Shown here: in pieces, positions 8,858-53,000 of the stretch
How positions within the stretch are numbered: the first letter of the stretch is position 1
Layout: every line of letters begins with the position of its first letter
Assembly: GCA_037043015.1 (NCBI GenBank)
Contig: CM073323.1
Location: 26,006,758 to 26,070,757 of the forward strand
Source of the DNA: Bryum argenteum
Taxonomy: Eukaryota > Streptophyta > Bryopsida > Bryales > Bryaceae
Direction of reading: 5' to 3'
DNA: 64,000 bases
The notes under the pieces: generated by a model
What the model was told of the DNA's origin: nothing
The model's database searches: none
The model's input: only the letters and a program-made list of their open reading frames with translations
Translations under genes and position numbers: made by a program

Positions 8858-9380
8858 ACTAGCTTACATCCGAAGCTTTAGTTTCAGAAGATGAGATTTG
8901 TGGTGTACATTTATTGTTATAAAAATTCCCTCTTTCTCCTAGCATCACATTGTACAAGTTAATTTTGCCAAAGGGGAGATAACACACCCATAGCGGCAGT
9001 TGTTGCCGAAGAACGTCGAACTGTTCTGAGTAGGAAGTGAGGAAACTCACCGTCATCATCCTCACTATAGTTACTGACTTCTTGTGTGCTATAACAAGCT
9101 GCCCTCGAAACCCGATCCTGCACTTATTCTTGCAACTCTGAGCGCTGATCAAGTACAGTTTCAGAAGCTCATGAAGAAATTTTACGTATCACCATTACAG
9201 GGAACACCATCACAGACACGTTTTTCATGTTCATCTACGGAGATTACCGGCACTCCTTAACACAATGAAAGATACGTCGTAGAGATCCGAGGTATGCGTG
9301 ATCTAAGGTGACTTCGATGGTGTCGGAGTTCCAGTTTGGATTTTAGATTGGTTCCCCGCCTGGTGAGAGGAGGGGGTAGA
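8858..9380. other. intergenic between PNPOx-like gene and U2 snRNA
   Basis: Likely 3' UTR of the PNPOx-like gene, followed by the region 3' of the U2 gene, which lies on the opposite strand. No other coding or RNA feature was recognised. Confidence 0.4.
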
Positions 9381-9572
9381 GGGCTGCGCCGGCCATGGAG
9401 GTAGTGCAAGACCAAGGCGACGCTCGCGGGTCCAGGTAGCAAGCTACCAGACAGACCCGCACCCATGAGAAATTAGATTAATATCATGAGGCTCGATGAG
9501 CCTCGTATCAGATATTAAACTGATAAGAACAGATACTACACTTGATCTTAGCCAAAAGGCCGAGAAAGGTAT
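9381..9572 (-). ncRNA. U2: U2 spliceosomal snRNA
   Basis: Read on the minus strand from 9572, the sequence starts ATACCTTTCTCGGCCTTTTG, the nearly invariant 5' end of plant U2. It continues with the branch-point-recognition segment GTGTAGTATCTG and the TTATCAGTTTAATATCTGAT region. Stem IIa/b is a perfect 7-bp hairpin GAGGCTC-ATC-GAGCCTC. Stem-loop III is clear (GGTAGC-TT-GCTACC), and a 3' stem-loop contains TTGCACTACCTCCATGG. Length is about 192 nt, close to the usual ~196. The Sm-site region reads TAATTTCTCA, less U-rich than typical plant U2. The intact helices favour a functional gene over a pseudogene. The 3' end is placed at the end of the GGCGCAGCCC stem and is approximate. Confidence 0.93.
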
Positions 9573-10104: not shown

Positions 10105-12866
10105 CTACTTGGTCAATGGAGAAGTCGGGTAAGGATTCGAGGCTCGCTCTTGAACCAGCCGTGCCAATTCACAAACAGCAAATCCATAGAGATCACTTCC
10201 ATTGTAGCGGAGAATCACCCGAAAGTTGTCGCACACCAAGTAGGCGTCACCTTTGGGTCCATTCGGCATCAACTGCAACAACAACAACAACAACAGCAAG
10301 GGGGCCTGTGAGCTCACGATCCCTGAACTGCAATCCCATTTTTTAAGAAAAAAGAGAACTTACCAAGCTTGCCATCTCGCCCGGAGGCAGTGGAGGCGCT
10401 TTCCCGGGGTTCAAATGGACGCCATGCTTGTGCTCCCAGTCCAGAACGCTCTTTACCACTCCTCCACCCACCAAGCTCTTATCCAACTTCTTCGGCACTT
10501 GCACCTGCACCCCCACTCATCATTCGTCAAGTGTGGTCTAAAATCGACTCAAACAAGTGATCATAGTGTTAACAATTGCTTACCTTCTTGGTAACTCAAT
10601 CAGACAAGTAATCACAGTGTTAAGATTCGCTGACCTTGAAAATGACTGCACAGGACTGTACCTTCTGGAACATTCAATCACGGAACTGTTCACTGTGTTG
10701 AGGATTTGTTTACCTTCTGAAAGATTGGACCACCCGCTTTCCATCCATGCTCTTTGAAGTAGTTGGCTATCGATGCAAGGATGTCTGCTTTCGATTCCCA
10801 AATATCTGTTGAGAGAGAGGGAGAGATGCATCATGAAGGCTTCGAACTACATTGGGTTTTGAATAGTATGAAATTCGGTACTGGAAAGGAGAAGAGTTGT
10901 ACCCCTGCGTCCGTCACCGTCGTAATCGAGGGCGTAGTCACGGAAGCTGGTGGGCATGAACTGACACTGTCCCATGGCACCTGCCCACGAGCCGAGCAAT
11001 CTCTTCTCCCCTTGAGGCCCGATTCCTCTTTGTGCCGTCCCGTTCTGTATCATTGATAGCACCTCCAGTAACTCCCCTCTGAAATATTTCCTTCTGCTTT
11101 CCTGAGTCCCACTTGCTTGTCAGTCAAAAAAAAAGGATGGTGATTAGAATGCTTGAAAACAGCCATTTAGGTGGTTTTTGAGGTTTATGTACCTGCGCTT
11201 CTGTGAAGCCCATCGTAGCAAGCGCTTGAATGATGTCCGAATTTCCCGTGTAGGTCCCATAGCTGTAGACACCAAGCAAAGATATGATGGGATTCTTCAG
11301 ACATGGATTGTTTTAGAGTTCTGCAGTTCGTAGCTTACTTCGTTTCGATTCCCCAAATGGACACCAGAAAGTGAGAAGGAACGCCGAACTTCTGAGAGAT
11401 TTCCGTTAAAAGCTCCGCGTTCTCTTTCAATCGAGTTGCACCGATTGCTATCCTTTGCTCGACCACCATCCTGTCGCGACCACCGAATGTGTCAAATTAT
11501 TGGATGTTTAATGATGCCAAAGACAATCACTTAACATGAAACAGAAGATAATAAGTGAATGAGAAGGAAGAAGGTGAGGACCTGTCGAGGTAGGCGTCCA
11601 ACAAAAGTTTCACCTCCGGTGCGTATTTCTTCGACACCACAGAGTCTTTTGACACTGTCACGTCTTTGAAGGCCCAGTTCAGCAGTTCTTCACTCACTCC
11701 TCTATTTATCGCATCCATTCTCACATTTTGCAACCACATGTCGAACTCCTTTCTTGCATCGTCAAGTTGCTTGCTCTGATGCATATTGCCATTGCGAATT
11801 ACTCATTATGTTCAAACATTAAGTACACAATCTACTCAGACTTTCGACTGTTTCCACAGTCAGCCATTTGAACATATGTAAATGATCGAAGTTAAGTGAC
11901 AATTCTATGCATGAAGACTAAATGGCGTTTCTTGAAGCTAATCGAGACCCGCACTTGAGTAAGGCGATTCAAACTTCACTTAGATGCACTAAACTTGAAA
12001 CTTTCCAAGCAGGATATCTGTTCGAAGTTAAATTACCACTGAAAGCTTTAAGATGAATCCTACCTCAGCCTGTGTGAGTCCTTCGTGAGCTGACACTGAT
12101 GACGACGCAAAAAACAAAGCTCTGTTGTTGCTTGGCAGGAATTGCTTCTTCTTCCACACATGAGAGCCTTCGTCGATCTGCTGAACAATGTCCGCTCCTG
12201 GTACATTAACCTCCTAATGCTGACGAAAATTCTACCGATACCCGTGTGCATGACTTCCAACAGTTTTCAATTTAAAATCTGTTCGTGCATTGTGATCAGG
12301 GCAATGGAACACGTACACATGACAGATTCTGACGACCTCACGCGAAGCTCCAATGTATCCTCAATGCGAATTCTAATGACAAATCTACGCCATTTTATCA
12401 AACGTGTCAAGAGCGATTAGCCTAGACAGCAATCGGAATTCGATTATTACTAACTTAACTAATTTAGTCGGAAGTTGAAGAATTGGAGAACCTCATTTGC
12501 GGTACCGGAGGGCAGGATCTGCGATAGCTGCTCGTCATTGATAACACACACTTGACCTGCCACAGGAGGAGGAGGCGTTGCGGCAACTGCGCGATTCCTC
12601 GAAACCAAAGCCACAGCAGCCACTGTGAATGTCAAAACTCCAACACTCACGAAATTCGCAAGCCTCGAGCTCTCATTCTCATTGAAATCATCGCCATTAC
12701 GGCTCGAAGCTTTCACCGCAAGGCAGGGCAATTTAGTGACCTGCTTCCTCAATCCAAAACCTTCAATAGCAACCCCTCGTTGCCTAAAACCCTCGAATCT
12801 GAATCGAAAGTGGTCGGATTTGGTTCGGGAAAATTGCAACGGCGATGACGCAGCGAGTAACGACAT
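10105..12866 (-). CDS. MltB-type (GH103) lytic transglycosylase, probably plastid-targeted, 9 exons
   Basis: Predicted enzyme that cleaves peptidoglycan glycan strands with anhydromuramic-acid formation. Exons (minus, 5' to 3'): 12866-12492, 12213-12064, 11775-11582, 11470-11339, 11262-11193, 11101-10903, 10805-10714, 10504-10364, 10272-10105, giving 506 residues with every junction in phase. Exon 1 looks like a chloroplast transit peptide (MSLLAASSPLQFSRTKSDHF, Ser/Arg-rich, few acidics). A hydrophobic stretch near residues 92-118 could anchor it in a membrane. The GH103 core is complete: KEFDMWLQNVRMDAINRGVS; WGIETNYG with the catalytic Glu at about 282; GSWAGAMGQCQFMPTSF at about 344; a calcium-binding EF-hand-like DYDGDGRRDIW at about 366, as in E. 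coli Slt35; ANYFKEHGW; and a C-terminal DNFRVILRYNGSDLYGFAV. Introns and ordinary codon use show that it is nuclear, not bacterial contamination. Exon 2 is the least conserved. Confidence 0.93.
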
Positions 12867-31565: not shown

Positions 31566-31705
31566 GATATGGGTGATGGAGAGAGATTGATCGGTCATGG
31601 TGTTGGCAGGGACTGCAGAAGAAGCTAGCTGATGTAGTAGGGTTAGTTTGCGGATTCATGCAACGCAGGTTAGTGTGCGTTTGATCACGAGCCAGTTAAT
31701 TAGCT

Positions 31706-32347
31706 ATGGGGAATGTGGCGATGGTGTGTGGGGGGAGACCAGGCGGAAGCCAACCAGTGGAACCTCGAGTACCAGTGACAGTACTCCAATCGAACGGAAA
31801 CGTGCTCTCTCTCTACAGCTCCAGGGTACGCGTGGTGGACCTCATCTTAGACTACCCGCACCACTTCGTCTGTCACTCAAGCTCGTTGGTGCAACTGCAC
31901 CACTCCAAAATCTTGCCGCTCCACACGCTTCTCGTTCCGGGGGAGGTTTACTTCTTGCTCCCCATGCCGAACCGGCCCACCCAGCAGGATAACGAGTCCG
32001 ACACTTCGTCGCTTCTCCACATCGAGCCACCGCGACGAGCCGTGCACCACCGTAGTGGCTCCACGGGAAGCACCAAGTTTGTGATTTCCACTGAGCAATT
32101 CTCTCGTATCATGGCTGGCTCGCTCAAGGAGGGGAAGCAGCAGCAGCAACAACAGGGTGGTGGTGCACTTTCGTCTTCCCTGAAGCGTAATCGGCATCAC
32201 CGTAGCGGCAAGACGACGACGATGACGACGATGACGACGACGAAAAGCTTGAGTAGTAGTGGCAACAACAACAATATCATCACAGCTCCCATCGCCGCGC
32301 CATGGCGTCCCGCCCTCTCCAGTATCGAAGAAGTGGCTGCCAATTGA
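31706..32347 (+). CDS. PADRE/DUF4228 domain protein, single exon
   Basis: Plant-specific PADRE (DUF4228) protein of 213 residues in one uninterrupted frame. It begins MGNVAMVCGG, with a glycine at position 2 suited to N-myristoylation. The core follows the family pattern: RVPVTVLQSNGNVLSLYSS, RVRVVDLILDYPHHFVCHSS, then LLVPGEVYFLLPMP. A later KFVISTEQFSRIMAG matches the conserved downstream motif. The C-terminal half is low complexity: a Gln run near residue 145, Thr/Met repeats (coded by GACGACGATG-type repeats at 32215-32245) and an Asn run. Family members are often stress- or pathogen-induced; biochemical function is unknown. A canonical donor (CAATGTAAGC near 32363) and a TTGCAG acceptor near 33030 could mark an intron in the 3' UTR. 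Confidence 0.88.
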   Translation: MGNVAMVCGGRPGGSQPVEPRVPVTVLQSNGNVLSLYSSRVRVVDLILDYPHHFVCHSSSLVQLHHSKILPLHTLLVPGEVYFLLPMPNRPTQQDNESDTSSLLHIEPPRRAVHHRSGSTGSTKFVISTEQFSRIMAGSLKEGKQQQQQQGGGALSSSLKRNRHHRSGKTTTMTTMTTTKSLSSSGNNNNIITAPIAAPWRPALSSIEEVAAN

Positions 32348-44053: not shown

Positions 44054-47000
44054 GTGAGGAAAAATCAACGTACCATTCGTGTGCATGTAACTACTTATGC
44101 TCGAGGTTTAGCTATTGAATCACGTCAGTACGTATGTTTTTTATTATAACTTAATACGAGTATGATTGGTATTTTTATGATTTAAGAAACTTATGCTTAT
44201 TCCATACCTCAGGTATCTTAATTCTTACAAAAAATACTTTAATTTATTCATGCAATTATCAACATCTTCTAAAAAATGATGTTGATAATTGCATGAATTA
44301 AAAAAAATAAAATGTAGAAGCAAACCTTAGTACAAAAGTTCGACAATAGATCTACTCATCATGGGTAGTTTTGAAGAAAATATCATTTGTAGAGTTATTT
44401 TTTAGGGTATATAATATTGAGAAACTATAAATATGTCATTGTCCATAGTTGGCATCATCTTTCAAGTTAAATTGAGTCTATACTAAAAAAGAGTATCAAA
44501 ATAGGTTTTGGAGTTTAAACCCTAGTTTGAGTTTATAATGTGAAGAAAAATAAATATGTGGAATGACATAATTAACATGCCTATTCAACTTCTCCTCGGT
44601 GTTTAACATAGAATTATTAGTATTTTAGTATTTTGATCTTCATTGATTCTCAAAATACGCTATCTTGTGGAAATTTAAAAACTAGCTATGTATCATGAAT
44701 TATTTAGGGTCCAATTTAAGTAACAACTTATCGATCACTTCTATAATTATGGAAAAAGAATACCTTATGTTTACTTCAAAACCTTTAACTTACCACTAGT
44801 TTAGAGGTTACACACAACAAACAATGATATTTCAACGTTATATTAAAGTCATGTACTTTCTAATTCGAAAGACATATTCGCAGATTTTGTACAAACGAAA
44901 TAGTGACAAGGAGATATACCCTATATAGTTTTATACCAAGAAGTCTTATTAGACAATTTCGTCGCCCGGCAAATTTTTATTTTTTAATCATATCAGCACT
45001 TCAAGCTAGAAAAGAAATATCAACAACAAGATGGGAGACAACAATCTTACCTCTTCTATTTGTTTTTCTTCTAAATGCGTTCAAAGAAGCATATGATGAA
45101 TTTCGACGCAAAGCTTCTGACGCAAAGGTAAAATTGAAATTGTATATAATCGTACACATATTTATTTCTATAATTTATGACTATTTTGATGTTGAAGAAA
45201 AGTTTATTGCAACAAATAAATAAAACTTATTTTGGTTTTGGAGCGCCTTTTGTAGGTTAATAAGAGACAAGTTGAAATCTTGAAAAATGATGAATTTGTT
45301 AGTGATGATTGGAGTACAGTTGTTGTTGGTGATATTTTGAAAATAAATGCAAACGAAGAGTTTCCCGCTGATCTAGTTTTCCTATCCTCATCAGATCCTC
45401 AAGGTAAATGAGTATATATACATATATATGTACTCATATTTGAAAGAACATGCAACACTTATTTTATATGCATGTCTTTTAGAAGTAAATACTGGAATTC
45501 ACATGTGTGTTTGTTGTATTTGTGTAGGTTTGGCTTATATAGAAACCGCAAACTTAGATGGTGAATCAAGCTTAAAAATACGCCACTCTTTCTATAAGTT
45601 GTCAAAATTGATTTTTGAAGGAGGGAACTTATCATTGTCTATTTTTGCGGGTATGGTGATAAAATGTGAAAAACCAAATAACCGTATGTTTCAGTTTGAA
45701 GGATCTATAAGTTTACAAGGTGAAGGAAGATTGGAGATAGATGAAACGCAAATTTTATTAAGAGGGGCAACCCTACGACACACTGAGTGGATCCTTGGAG
45801 CTGTTGTTTTTACCGGCATGGATACTAAACTCATGCGTAATATGATATCCGGTTCTCACAAGGTACTCTATAAAAGTTTGTCCACTAAAAGAAAAAACCT
45901 ACTTGGCAGATCCAACTATATCACCCATTATAATATATAATACAAGTGTTAGTTCGAATGCAGAATATACTCATTAGTCTAGACTTAAAAGCGCTAGTTT
46001 TTTTCCAATGGTCATTTCTATGGTAGTAAGAATGAGTGATTATTAGACTTTATTATTAGTTCTCAAATTTGAAACCAAAAGGCATAGAAATCATAATATT
46101 TCAATGTGTAGTAGAAAAGTCATTTACTTCATATATTACTACTATTTTGTAGTTTCCAAGAGTCCACAGCTAATTCATATCATCAACACACACAAGTTTT
46201 TGAAATCAAAGTTTAGGATGAAGCCTAGAAAAAAGAGAGAGTTTGGAAGAACTAAGCAACTCCGTCTATATTTTATCTTCGGTTTTCTTAAAATTATAGC
46301 ATTTAAAATTTGTATCTCTTCTTGCCTTCAAACTATTATAATGGTATTTGTATACATTTCAATTAGTTCATATTACTATTTCAAAGAGGATGAGTTATGA
46401 CACTAAATATGCTTCTAATTGATGTAGGTTTCGTCTTTGGAAAAGAATAGCAATTTTTTTGTAGCAGTAATGATGATCATTCTTTTCATCTTATGCTTGG
46501 GTTTGGCCTTAGCCACCGACATTTTAATAGTTGAACAAACAAGTAAATGGCCCTATTATCTCCCACTTCAAAGTGATTGGCCAGAGCCAAAGGCTTCACT
46601 ATCTTTGATACTTGTTCAAATGCTAAGGTTGACAACTTTCTTCTTACATCTAGTATATAAAAGTTTGTATGTCGAATTTATATGAATTCAACAAATATTA
46701 GTTTAATAATTGTCTCTAATTTTCTATAACACATATTGCTGTAAAATTGTGTACATTTTAGTCCATAGCTATCCAATTTACTCAAAGAAGTTCTCAAAGT
46801 GACATTTTCTTAAACTTGAATTGTAGGTTTATATTGTTAATGAATGAGTTCATACCAATTTCAATGTATGTAACTCTTGAGATAGTAAAGGTTGTGCAAT
46901 GCCTCTATGTCAATTGGGACATTGAGATGTTTCATCACGACACAAATGAACCAAGTCGTGCTCGTGCTTCTGGTTTAACTGAAGAGTTGGGTCAAGTAGA

Positions 47001-50000
47001 ATATATCTTGTCTGATAAAACTGGAACGTTAACACAAAATTTGATGGCGTTCATAAAATGTTCGGTTGGAGGTGAGGTATATGGAAAATCTTCGGCAGAA
47101 TCATCAATTACAACAACAACTTCTAAGGAGACATCTAGGTCTGTGCACAATGTGGCACATGATCCAGTCCTTATTGATATTCTTAATACTCCATCAAATC
47201 CTAAATCTGAAACATGTCGCGCATTTTTTACACACATTGCATTATGCCACACAGTTATTCCAAATTATGTTTATGATGACGAAATAGAAGAAGTTTGTTA
47301 TCAATCTACTTCTCCTGATGAATCCGCACTTGTCCAAGTAATGATTTTTATTTATTTATTTAATTTTATCATAGACTTGTATATATCATTAGATGTACTT
47401 CTAACCAACAAACAACGAACCATGTAGTGTACGAAAAAAGGCTCTACATGGGGTAATTAGCTAGTTTGAAAACCGGTACACAGACTTGAGATGATCCTTT
47501 TCAAACTTTATGATATTTTGTCTTTTCAAACTTTATGATATTTTGTCGGTTCTTCGTTTCAACAATATGACTGATAGCGAGATACTTATTCAATAAAGAA
47601 ATGGATAATGAAATTTTGGGGTATATTAAATATTTAATATATACTTATCTATGGAACAACGTACACATAAATACTAATCTTTTGGTACTTTGGAGATTAG
47701 AGGAATACTTAAGATTCATGTTAGTCGGTTTTTGTTGGTATAGTATCTTGACATAAACCATTTTCAGGGAGCTTCAGAATGTGGGTTTCATCTAAAGACA
47801 CGAACACCAGAACAACTTGTTGTTTTCATTGAGGTTTGTGCTTAAGTTTTGAAAACAATTAAGTTGTATGTATTTGTAAAAAAAAAGAAAAATATCAATA
47901 AACTAAGATAACAAATATAACTATAATTTAGGAATAACTATAATTCATAATTTAGGGAGAAAAATCACAATCTTATATTTAGAATTTGTATCTTGTAGGG
48001 TCAAGGTTTAGAACAATTTCGAATATTAGCCATGCTTGAGTTTACGCCAGAGAGGAAGAGAATGAGTATTATATGCCAAGAGCATAAAGGACGGTAATAT
48101 TATTTCCTAAAAAAATTAGTGATTCTCGACCTACTTTATGGGCCTTATAAAAGGCCATGTCGGACTTGAAAAATGTGGAAGTCACGTGATGTTTATCTTT
48201 AAGGTTTCTCATTTCATTAGACTTAAGAAGTCTTACTTTATCAAAGATGTGCTCTTTATTATGATCTAGAGGTCCAAACAATATGTATTGAAGTGAGCCT
48301 CTAAATCTGACGTTAGGGCATGCAAACAGGCATTGAGTTCTGTAATTGGGATGTTTAAGTCTTCATGATGAACTTGACTTTAGTAACTCTTCTTCAATGA
48401 AACTTAAAGTATGAATCTTAAATTACGTAGGATAAAATTGTATTGTAAAGGAGCTGACGCAGTGATTTTCAAAAGACTTGCAAAGTCACAAGACGCACTT
48501 GCTGAAATAAGTCAACAACACCTTGAAGAGTTTGCAAAATGTGGATTCCGGACTTTGTGCATGGCTGAGCGTGAGGTACACTAACTTTTTTAGAGAATTT
48601 CATTGCAAAAAATAAATGAATTGATATTTTACATTCTTACTTTGATATCTAGTGGAGGAACTAAAAATTTGATGCACTATGAAATTAGTTAAGTCAAGAA
48701 GAATTTCGGAGTTGGGCAGTTCATTTTCATCAAGCAAGTTTAGCATTGGATGACCGAGATCAAAAATTAGCTGCGGTAGCTGAGACCATTGAAAGAGATA
48801 TGGTGAAATTTTTTGAAGCTAAAATTTGTTTTTTCTATATGTTTAATGGTGTTTATTTATAATATTAAAGATTGTGTCACATTTCACTAAATTTGAACAA
48901 GTCTAAACATTATTTATCGAAGAGGTTTTTCAACCTATTGTACTTTTGTGCATATCTATGAACTTGGTTAGTTTATAAGATTCACAGATCGGTGTTATTG
49001 TATCTAATAAGGAGATTCCTTAATAATTCACGATCCACTAGTAGATCTCTTTAAAATTTTGTTCTACACTCTCAACATCTATAATTTGTTAACCCTTTAA
49101 TGCCGAGGATATTGCAAAGTAATGTTGTATTGATCCTGTTTGGGTGTGTTTGGTGCTGATTGGTTAACATGTCATGTTTGTTATGCACTAATATTCATCA
49201 TTTTTGAAGACAACTTTATATTTGTGTTGCACAAGTAACCATCAATTAGAGTTAAATTTTTTTTTCTTTAAAAAGAAAAGAAAAGAAAAGAAGTGGTGAT
49301 TCTTAACTAAAGAATATAAATTATATTTTCTACTTACTTAAACTAAATTGCGTCCATGATTTCCAAAATATAGGTGAAGATATGACCATTATTTCATCAC
49401 ACAAAACTTGATTAAAATAAAGAATATTGCTTAAATTTTTACATAAGATCTAATGCATCAAACATTCTATTGCTATGAACATATATAGTCTTTTGATATT
49501 AAAAGTTTTTATATTTATTTTGATAGTAGGTCTTACTTGGAGTATCAGCAGTAGAAGATAAATTACAAGAAGGTGTTCCAGAAACTGTGACACTACTTGG
49601 TGCTGCCGGAATAAAGTTGTGGGTATGTAGTTATAAGATTTTGTTATCAAATTTCACAAGGATAAAATATTGCGGGCTCAGGGTTGTTAGCAACAAGCAT
49701 AGATCAAGGAAATTTACTAATACCACGTGAGCGAGAAGGTCTCTTCTGTTATATAATAAATCCATCTTTTATTAGAACCAAAAAGAGTGTTCACAAATTT
49801 CAGATTTCATTATGCCATGTATGTTTCTTGCACTTTTTGAAAGAAAGGTTACAATAAAAGTTTTATTTTTTGAATTTCTAGCTTTTAAGTTTGAACCAAG
49901 CATCAAGATGTGAAGTAGTGTATCCAAAAGAAACTACGTTAACTCTATGCCAAAAGTTGGATTTCAGAAATTTTTGCAAGGTATGATTAGGGTTGTATTA

Positions 50001-53000
50001 ATGTACGAGGTCACTTTTTGATGCGCCTATCTAGAGTCGTTAGTTGGATTCTTTTTTGCACACTAGATGTAAAACCAACACTTGTACATTGACTTTCTAG
50101 AGCCAAATCTTAATCAAATAAATAAAGAGCTCCAACAAATAAAAAATTCTTTAATTGATATTTAAAACAATTATTACATGCCTTTTTATATGATTGGGAA
50201 ATTGCTTAATGATCTATCTTGGATAAGTAAAATACCTTGTTAGTTTTATGTGAATCATAATTAAGTATATGTGTAATACAATTTGAAAGTCGAAAGTTAT
50301 ATATTTCAACAGGTTTTAACCGGAGATAAGCTTGAAACAGCTGTTTCAATTGGACTATCATGTAATCTATTGGCAGAATCAATGCATTTGTTCCTATTAT
50401 CTGAGTCCATAGCTTCTACGGTGCCTATGGCATTAAGAAGTATGGTCAAAGAAGCACGAAGCCTTTACAAAACATCACTTGTAGATGGTATATTACAAAA
50501 TTGTAAGAAGTTGTTGTTTTTTACAATTCTTCCAAATAAGACTTTTTTATTTAAATTCACTGAAGTAGAGAAGTACCTGATTAATTTAAAAGTAGACATG
50601 GCATACATATCACTAATATGACTTTTGAGATATTTCAGCATATTGATGATATAAGCATGTGATGATATTATAGGAGCGGAATCATCTAGCATGGCTACTG
50701 TAATAGAGGGTGCCTCCGTTGGCATTGCTTTAGAAGAATCAAACCGCTTGATATTTTTGGAACTATGTAAATATTGTCGAGCAGTTGTTTGTTGTCGTGT
50801 TTCACCTCTTCAAAAAGCTCAGGTGTTTTATCTTAATGATTGAAAATTCAATACTACTTAAGAAGCTATACTTGTTGTAATTTGAAGTTTGATAGTCAGA
50901 ATATTGTAAGATGATGATTTGAAGGTATGTTGTAGGTTACTAAATTGGTAAAAGAAGAAGGGAAAGTTGTAACGCTCGCTATAGGAGATGGAGCCAATGA
51001 TGTAGGAATGATAAAGGCGGCACAAATAGGTGTTGGTATTAGTGGGCGAGAAGGGCGTGCAGCGGAAATGGCTAGTGATTATGCCATTGGTCAATTCCGT
51101 TTTCTTGAACGACTTCTTCTTGTTCATGGCCGGTGGTAAGACTCTTGGGAATCTAAGAAAAAATTGGATAAATATAAATCTACGAAAAATCTAATTCTTT
51201 AAAAATTATGGTGTGTGGTTATAGAATACAATAAAGATATAGAAAATATGTACACAAGTTGTTGTTGTAAATCTCCAATTTTGAATATGTTGGCAAATAG
51301 AATGCAGCATCCAATGTATAATGTCTCAACGATCAATATAAGCTATGATTGATAATTGATTATCAATTTTTTTTAAAAAATTAAATAAAATAAATTGCAT
51401 TTCATTCATATACAATACTAGTAACGATAAGTAACATATAAAATATTGTGATACATGAGATTGAACTTTAAGCAAAAAACATCTCAAATTATCAAATAAA
51501 TTCTTAATACGAAAAAGAAAAATGGCAAAATATCTCATTGTATATTCCTACATACATATTTGTTCTGCACATACGTAGTATTAAGCCATTAACAAAATAC
51601 GTGGTCATTGCCCAGGTCGTATAAAAGAAATAGAAATCTTGTGATGTATTCTATTTACAAAAACATAGTGTTCTCTTTGACTCACTTCTTCTTTTCCTTC
51701 ATTTCACAATTTTCTGCACAAACTATTTACATTAATATTTTTGTCATCACATACAATTATGTGTGGACATTGTGGCCAACTCTATGGTGCGCAATTCTTG
51801 ACATTGATGTAAGTGCTCGTACTTCCAAAAACAATCCTCAACTTTATGCCGAAACTCAATTGAACAAGGGTCCATGTTTCATTAAACATATGATTCAATG
51901 GATTATTATGGGTGTTTGGCATTCTATTATTGCCTTCGGTTTCCCATGTATGGCTCTTTCATCCATAAGGTGAATTATCTTAGAAAAGTTTGTTAAATTG
52001 TACTAATATATGTAATGATATCACTTTCTTTTGAATATCAAGGATTAAGAGCAATATGTTTATGTACATACAATTATGTTTTGTATCATGATATGTATAC
52101 TAAAGTCTTTTTTCTTGTTGTTGCAGTAATAATGGTCAAACAGCTGGAATATGGACATTAGGTTTGGCAATTTATGTAACCACATTGCTTATTGTTACAA
52201 TTAAATTAGCAATCCAGATTCCACGTTATACATTATACCACATTATTAGTATATGTTTTCCCCCTCTCATTTTAGTTGGAGTCTTATATATCACTTCAAT
52301 TTCATTTGAATGGAATATAAATTGGATCTATGCTAAAACCGAAGCGACATTTCTTTTTTCTTCTCCAAGTTTATGGTTGTTTATAGCACTAGGGCCTATT
52401 GCTGCTTGTTTACCAGATACTACTATTTACATATTTTCAAAAAGAAAGTCACCACAAGATTTTCAAATAATGCAAGAAATAGAACATGGTTGGCAAGACA
52501 ATGTATATACAAAGCACCATCAAAAATTTGTTGATCAAGTGATCGAAGAGGATGGAATAAATGATTTCACCAAGGGAAATTTATCAAATGATGCAATAAT
52601 CATAGAAACAAGTGAAGAAAGTGGTAGCATAGAGAGTATAAAAAACACATCAGTGAAATCCGAATCTTTCTTGATCAAACAAGATTTGAAGGAGAATACT
52701 AATAAGAAAGATAATGATAGTTTGCAAGACATGTTGACAAGTGAAAATGAAAACATTTCAAAGGGTGAATATATTAAATCTCCATATAGAAGCAGCCGTG
52801 TGAAATTCAATTGTAAGTTCGCCTAATTATTTTGTTTCATCTTATACAACAATTACTTGATATTTCATCAAACCATTAATTACTTTTGAACCATAAAAAT
52901 AAAATTTGATTACTATTTGAATAAAATATTGTATTTATTACTTATAAGAGTGATAGATAAGAAAAAACTATGCAAATGTATATTATCTCAATTAAATATA

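Follow-up and report, generated by a model that had tools for sequence, protein, structure and literature searches.

The closest described counterpart of the gene considered here is MltB of the moss Physcomitrella (P. patens), for which the available part of a sunflower MATE paper (PMC13075712) cites a role in chloroplast division (Utsunomiya et al., 2021). The title of the cited work, as given in the reference lists of PMC12681378, PMC9434261 and PMC13075712, names peptidoglycan hydrolases required for chloroplast division, and the accessible text of the first two articles cites it for MurJ. Normal chloroplast division in P. patens and Cyanophora also requires DipM, a further hydrolase of plastid peptidoglycan (PMC4015805, available part), and it is this kind of function that we propose for a GH103 protein of Bryum argenteum. 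Chloroplast division needs plastid peptidoglycan to be cut as well as made. DipM is of the LytM/M23 peptidase type, which cuts peptides and not glycan, and is not homologous to GH103 enzymes, whose cut leaves a 1,6-anhydroMurNAc end. In Physcomitrella, PpMltB-GFP was reportedly found in chloroplasts, the knockout is said to have fewer chloroplasts and the protein is reported to have shown hydrolase activity in a zymogram.

The B. argenteum gene lies in a 64,000-nucleotide stretch of genomic DNA (hereafter the window) and is, by sequence comparison, probably the orthologue of the described P. patens MltB. The original prediction that no plastid GH103 hydrolase had been described has to be given up, as a moss GH103 protein is already linked to chloroplast division, although in another species (Utsunomiya et al., 2021, as cited in the available part of PMC13075712). 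Two deposited proteins, the P. patens model P0004 (57% identity, 86% of the query covered) and a more complete version tied to that species through it, P0003 (64% over 82%), are, we infer, the published PpMltB. We are confident, if short of certain, that the gene encodes a plastid-directed GH103 lytic transglycosylase, the nucleus-encoded moss MltB orthologue that opens the plastid wall for division. The cutting enzyme described in Physcomitrella would thus be conserved in a second moss, and its antiquity is indicated by related proteins from algae, a lycophyte and liverworts; our literature search, judged from its listings, returned no paper that traces MltB across the streptophytes. The gene is otherwise of an ordinary kind, with two points of note, namely a probable single old origin in streptophytes and a catalytic exon that preserves the reading frame.

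Gene structure and the GH103 domain

The gene occupies the minus strand of the window from position 12866 down to 10105 (C3:26016862-26019623) and, as predicted, consists of nine exons separated by eight introns, all of which are of the GT..AG type with fitting phases. The joined frame stays open for 496 codons between the ATG at 12866 and the TAG at 10105, giving a predicted protein of 496 residues. Exon 1 (12506–12866, residues 1–121) carries the start codon, the leader and a hydrophobic stretch and ends at a GT donor; exon 2 (12064–12197, residues 121–165) has an AG acceptor, a GT donor and a fitting phase; and the GH103 domain begins in exon 3 (11582–11775, residues 166–230). Exon 4 (11339–11470, residues 230–274), which is 132 nt long and in phase 2 on both sides, carries Glu272 and is followed by exon 5 (11193–11262, residues 274–297), by exon 6 (10903–11101, residues 298–364) with the motifs GSWAGAMGQCQFMP and DYDGDG, and by exons 7 (10714–10805, residues 364–394) and 8 (10364–10504, residues 395–441). 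Exon 9 (10105–10272, residues 442–496 and the stop codon) encodes DNFRVILRYN. Three exons (4, 8 and 9) have lengths that are multiples of three, unlike the remaining six.

Most of this structure is matched by P0001, a 342-aa protein from a 1,080-bp JGI contig that aligns without gaps to residues 155–496 with 329 of 342 positions identical (96%). The alignment covers the 3′ end of exon 2 and the whole of exons 3–9, and it runs through junctions 2–8, seven of the eight, while junction 1, outside its range, is supported by the frame and the GT/AG borders. The simplest account of the intronless P0001 contig is that it represents a transcript from a close relative. A bacterial-type domain might suggest contamination with bacterial DNA or a recent transfer, but this reading, to which we give practically no credence, is already contradicted by the eight introns, by the location of the window inside a 30.6-Mb contig (of an assembly of 258.8 Mb in 25 contigs), by the spliced-looking P0001 relative and by orthologues in named bryophytes and algae.

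The predicted protein matches the Pfam profile SLT_2 over residues 176–479 (E = 3.6e-95; 319 bits against a cut-off of 24.3; profile positions 2–292 of 292) and the NCBIfam model TIGR02283 (MltB_2) with 289.9 bits, over its cut-off of 248.45, which agrees with the prediction of a nuclear, intron-containing and complete GH103 enzyme. A match to DUF7034 was below threshold (17.4 bits against 27) and was ignored. The label of the E. coli MltB equivalog was rejected, with scores of 204.2 against a cut-off of 281.4 for TIGR02282 and 145.9 against 449 for NF008029. All four motifs named beforehand, WGIETNYG, GSWAGAMGQCQFMP (residues 334–347), DYDGDG and DNFRVILRYN, were found in the translation. The codon of Glu272 (11344–11346, minus strand) lies within WGIETNYG, and the matching Glu is invariant in all 34 rows of alignment A3; from work on Slt35/SltB we take it to be the catalytic residue. 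DYDGDG (residues 356–361 of the translation, 10910–10927, minus strand) forms what is presumably an EF-hand-like loop.

Relatives of solved structure, found by sequence in the PDB, comprise eight distinct sequences, all of them soluble lytic transglycosylase B or MltB, with Pseudomonas aeruginosa SltB3 as the best match. Because the spliced protein cannot be read in one frame of the window, the AlphaFold2 model was made of the 96% identical P0001 as a proxy and not of the B. argenteum protein itself. It has a mean pLDDT of 87.4 and a pTM of 0.85, and Foldseek returned eight matches to it at E values up to 0.001, all of them SltB1, SltB2, SltB3 or Slt35, with TM-scores by query length of 0.70–0.74 and rmsd of 3.6–4.7. 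The segment WAGAMGQC (182–189) beside the active site has a pLDDT under 50 in the P0001 model, which therefore does not settle this active-site loop. The moss protein has its domain and catalytic motif in common with P. aeruginosa SltB3 and E. coli MltB (Slt35); unlike these, it has a eukaryotic leader, with no lipobox seen, and its alignment with SltB3 reveals an insert of 7 or more residues before GSWAGAMG. In the whole-assembly search, four of the five scored candidates matched SLT_2 and all four lie inside this gene; a second GH103 locus was not matched in the assembly by this exon-by-exon search, which could overlook a diverged copy. The gene is real and complete, and the predicted enzyme probably a working one.

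Predicted location and the plastid wall

The leader had been described as transit-like and rich in Ser and Arg. It is indeed basic, with 11 Arg/Lys among the first 60 residues, but its Ser/Arg richness is less clear than claimed, as these residues include 9 Ser/Thr and 5 Asp/Glu, the latter being more than is usual for a transit leader. The hydrophobic segment placed behind the leader is present as one stretch starting at residue 70 (residues 70–88; 12603–12659, minus strand), with a 19-residue mean hydropathy of 2.08, and is likely to be a membrane anchor. It is preceded by LAVKASSR, which, from the pattern as we know it, we take to resemble a stromal processing site. One such stretch lies between leader and domain in all eight rows of the bryophyte group (the window, P0002, P0003 and P0005–P0009), and a hydrophobic stretch with a value over 1.6 is found in 6 of the 13 further streptophyte-group rows. 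Several of the remaining seven seem to be truncated, but three of them (P0181, P0121 and P0015) are long sequences.

In mosses, peptidoglycan is presumed to occupy the plastid intermembrane space (PMC12681378 and PMC9434261, in their available parts). The leader would take the GH103 protein to the plastid, where the hydrophobic stretch may anchor it at the inner envelope so that its catalytic domain faces the intermembrane space. There, Glu272 would act as acid/base and cut the MurNAc-GlcNAc bond of plastid peptidoglycan, and the wall so opened would allow strands made by class A PBP to be inserted and the plastid to divide. Plastid location and a peptidoglycan substrate are what we infer for the B. 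argenteum protein. In the main text of a preprint on the Marchantia chloroplast proteome (PMC13419835), the terms peptidoglycan, transglycosylase and murein are absent, and it therefore lends no support for the location.

As the leader departs from a typical transit peptide, an active enzyme might instead be secreted or cytosolic and digest bacterial peptidoglycan for defence or nutrition. We regard this as very improbable, given that the hydrophobic stretch follows a long basic leader, from residue 70 on, and does not lie at the N terminus like a secretory signal, that Physcomitrella MltB has a cited role in plastid division (PMC13075712, available part) and that GH103 is found in peptidoglycan-bearing streptophyte lines.

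The plastid-directed reading had carried with it the expectation of peptidoglycan synthesis genes in the same genome, and these were found. MurB (2.4e-28 in the genome search and 2.7e-30 on an open frame) and MurJ (5.2e-38 in the genome search) are present; their genome-search matches each cross one TGA, as matches reaching into introns do, and the MurB open frame is clean. Class A PBP is represented by transglycosylase exons and a transpeptidase exon over the cut-off (25.4 bits against 22.1), and Ddl by one exon only (L087, 33.9 bits against a cut-off of 24). The best Ddl match, L086, reads by eye like carbamoyl-phosphate synthase and was rejected, so that the claim for Ddl rests on L087. The PBP exons (C3:26175569-26181042; L096 3070-8543, minus strand) share contig and strand with the GH103 gene, at a distance of about 156 kb. 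For one gene to fall this near corresponds to about 0.12% of the genome, or about 0.5% when all four placed genes are counted; the proximity was noticed afterwards and may be due to chance.

Distribution and origin of the streptophyte genes

Three protein searches were run, each scoring about 8,000 candidates and listing the best 120. The nearest named relative among the matches listed is from Ceratodon purpureus (70% over 86% of the query), and named GH103 proteins in these lists come from Ceratodon, Physcomitrium, Sphagnum, Marchantia, two Riccia, Selaginella, Klebsormidium and Closterium. Hornworts, named ferns and seed plants were not found among the matches listed; nine unnamed rows may be such plants. 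The Closterium protein P0121 combines the GH103 domain with ABC-ATPase domains in one predicted protein, perhaps through fusion of gene models.

A first tree kept 255 of 258 rows (P0004, P0015 and P0084 were left out as short), a second took 97 of these 255, and a third dropped L006, P0013 and L028, two of them for long ends and two for odd composition (L006 for both). For the final tree, again of 97 rows, 11 streptophyte-group and 12 other rows were added and 20 near-duplicates were taken out by hand. The 21 streptophyte-group rows comprise eight with named organisms, P0185 and P0188 placed by their labels (which we take to stand for Spirogloea and Mesostigma, respectively), P0003, which is tied to P. 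patens via P0004, the window protein and nine unnamed rows. In the final tree these 21 rows come together against the 76 others (support 100/99; 100% in a 200-tree bootstrap), a grouping that is partly circular for the nine unnamed rows because they were placed in the group by their scores; 10 streptophyte rows were also united in the three earlier trees (the FastTree tree of 255 rows, the 97-row tree and its reduced version). Mesostigma branches first, followed by Klebsormidium, Closterium, Spirogloea, Selaginella and the bryophytes, with several inner branches weak, and the window protein groups with P0002 of Ceratodon and the P. patens-like P0003 (100/99). The GH103 tree that had been suggested was thus built and showed the streptophytes as one group; cyanobacterial rows and E. 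coli MltB, also suggested, are not part of it or of the other trees.

The tree supports a single group of streptophyte GH103 proteins, as one old acquisition would give. The gene was probably obtained once, early in streptophytes, from a bacterium with MltB_2-type enzymes and then inherited vertically, as far as protein trees can indicate. The bacterial sister group shifts from L013 in one tree (65/81) to other, weakly supported rows in the final tree, and because of this difference no donor is named here. The plastid link of the enzyme would favour a different source, the cyanobacterium from which plastids arose, and the trees, holding no cyanobacterial row, are compatible with this origin. 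We nevertheless consider it unlikely: Synechococcus elongatus, one of 14 control genomes, is not among the three that matched SLT_2 (a single genome only), and no cyanobacterium appears in the record titles of the best 80 of at least 565 confirmed loci from genome_contigs. If the donor was non-cyanobacterial, the plastid wall of land plants would be kept by machinery of mixed origin.

The catalytic exon and other features of the window

When exon 4 is omitted in silico, the frame remains open for a protein of 452 residues with the join YLDSYG and without Glu272. The deposited P. patens model P0004 corresponds to P0003 minus exactly 44 residues at the position of exon 4; the two are identical across their first 265 residues, and P0004 has Ser at the join, as the phases of exon 4 predict. 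The same 44-residue gap and the same Ser join indicate that exon 4 has identical borders and phases in both mosses. Regulated skipping of this exon (132 nt, phase 2-2) might let one gene make both a cutting enzyme and a binding form without catalytic activity, and both the open 452-residue frame and the P. patens pair would fit. But P0004 is a single sequence that may be an annotation error, whereas P0003 stands for 16 member sequences, and we view such regulation as doubtful, if not far-fetched. The in-frame catalytic exon does offer a testable idea of splicing-based control. A broader scenario, which we hold tentatively and at somewhat less than even confidence, would combine a single uptake of a non-cyanobacterial gene by the common streptophyte ancestor, before the Mesostigma split, a role at the plastid wall and retention together with that wall, with mosses perhaps skipping the Glu exon to produce a dead wall-binder.

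The coding sequence of the GH103 gene has 51% G+C (57% at third positions) and the window 39%. Just downstream of the gene is a U2 spliceosomal RNA gene (9379–9572, minus strand; 180.5 bits, full model). The plus strand of the window carries a PADRE-domain protein (31700–32344; 1.1e-20) and exons of a phospholipid-translocating P-type ATPase (about 45377–52823), with PhoLip_ATPase_C at 52104–52823 and DKTGTLTQN read in 46762–47424, a frame without a Pfam match.
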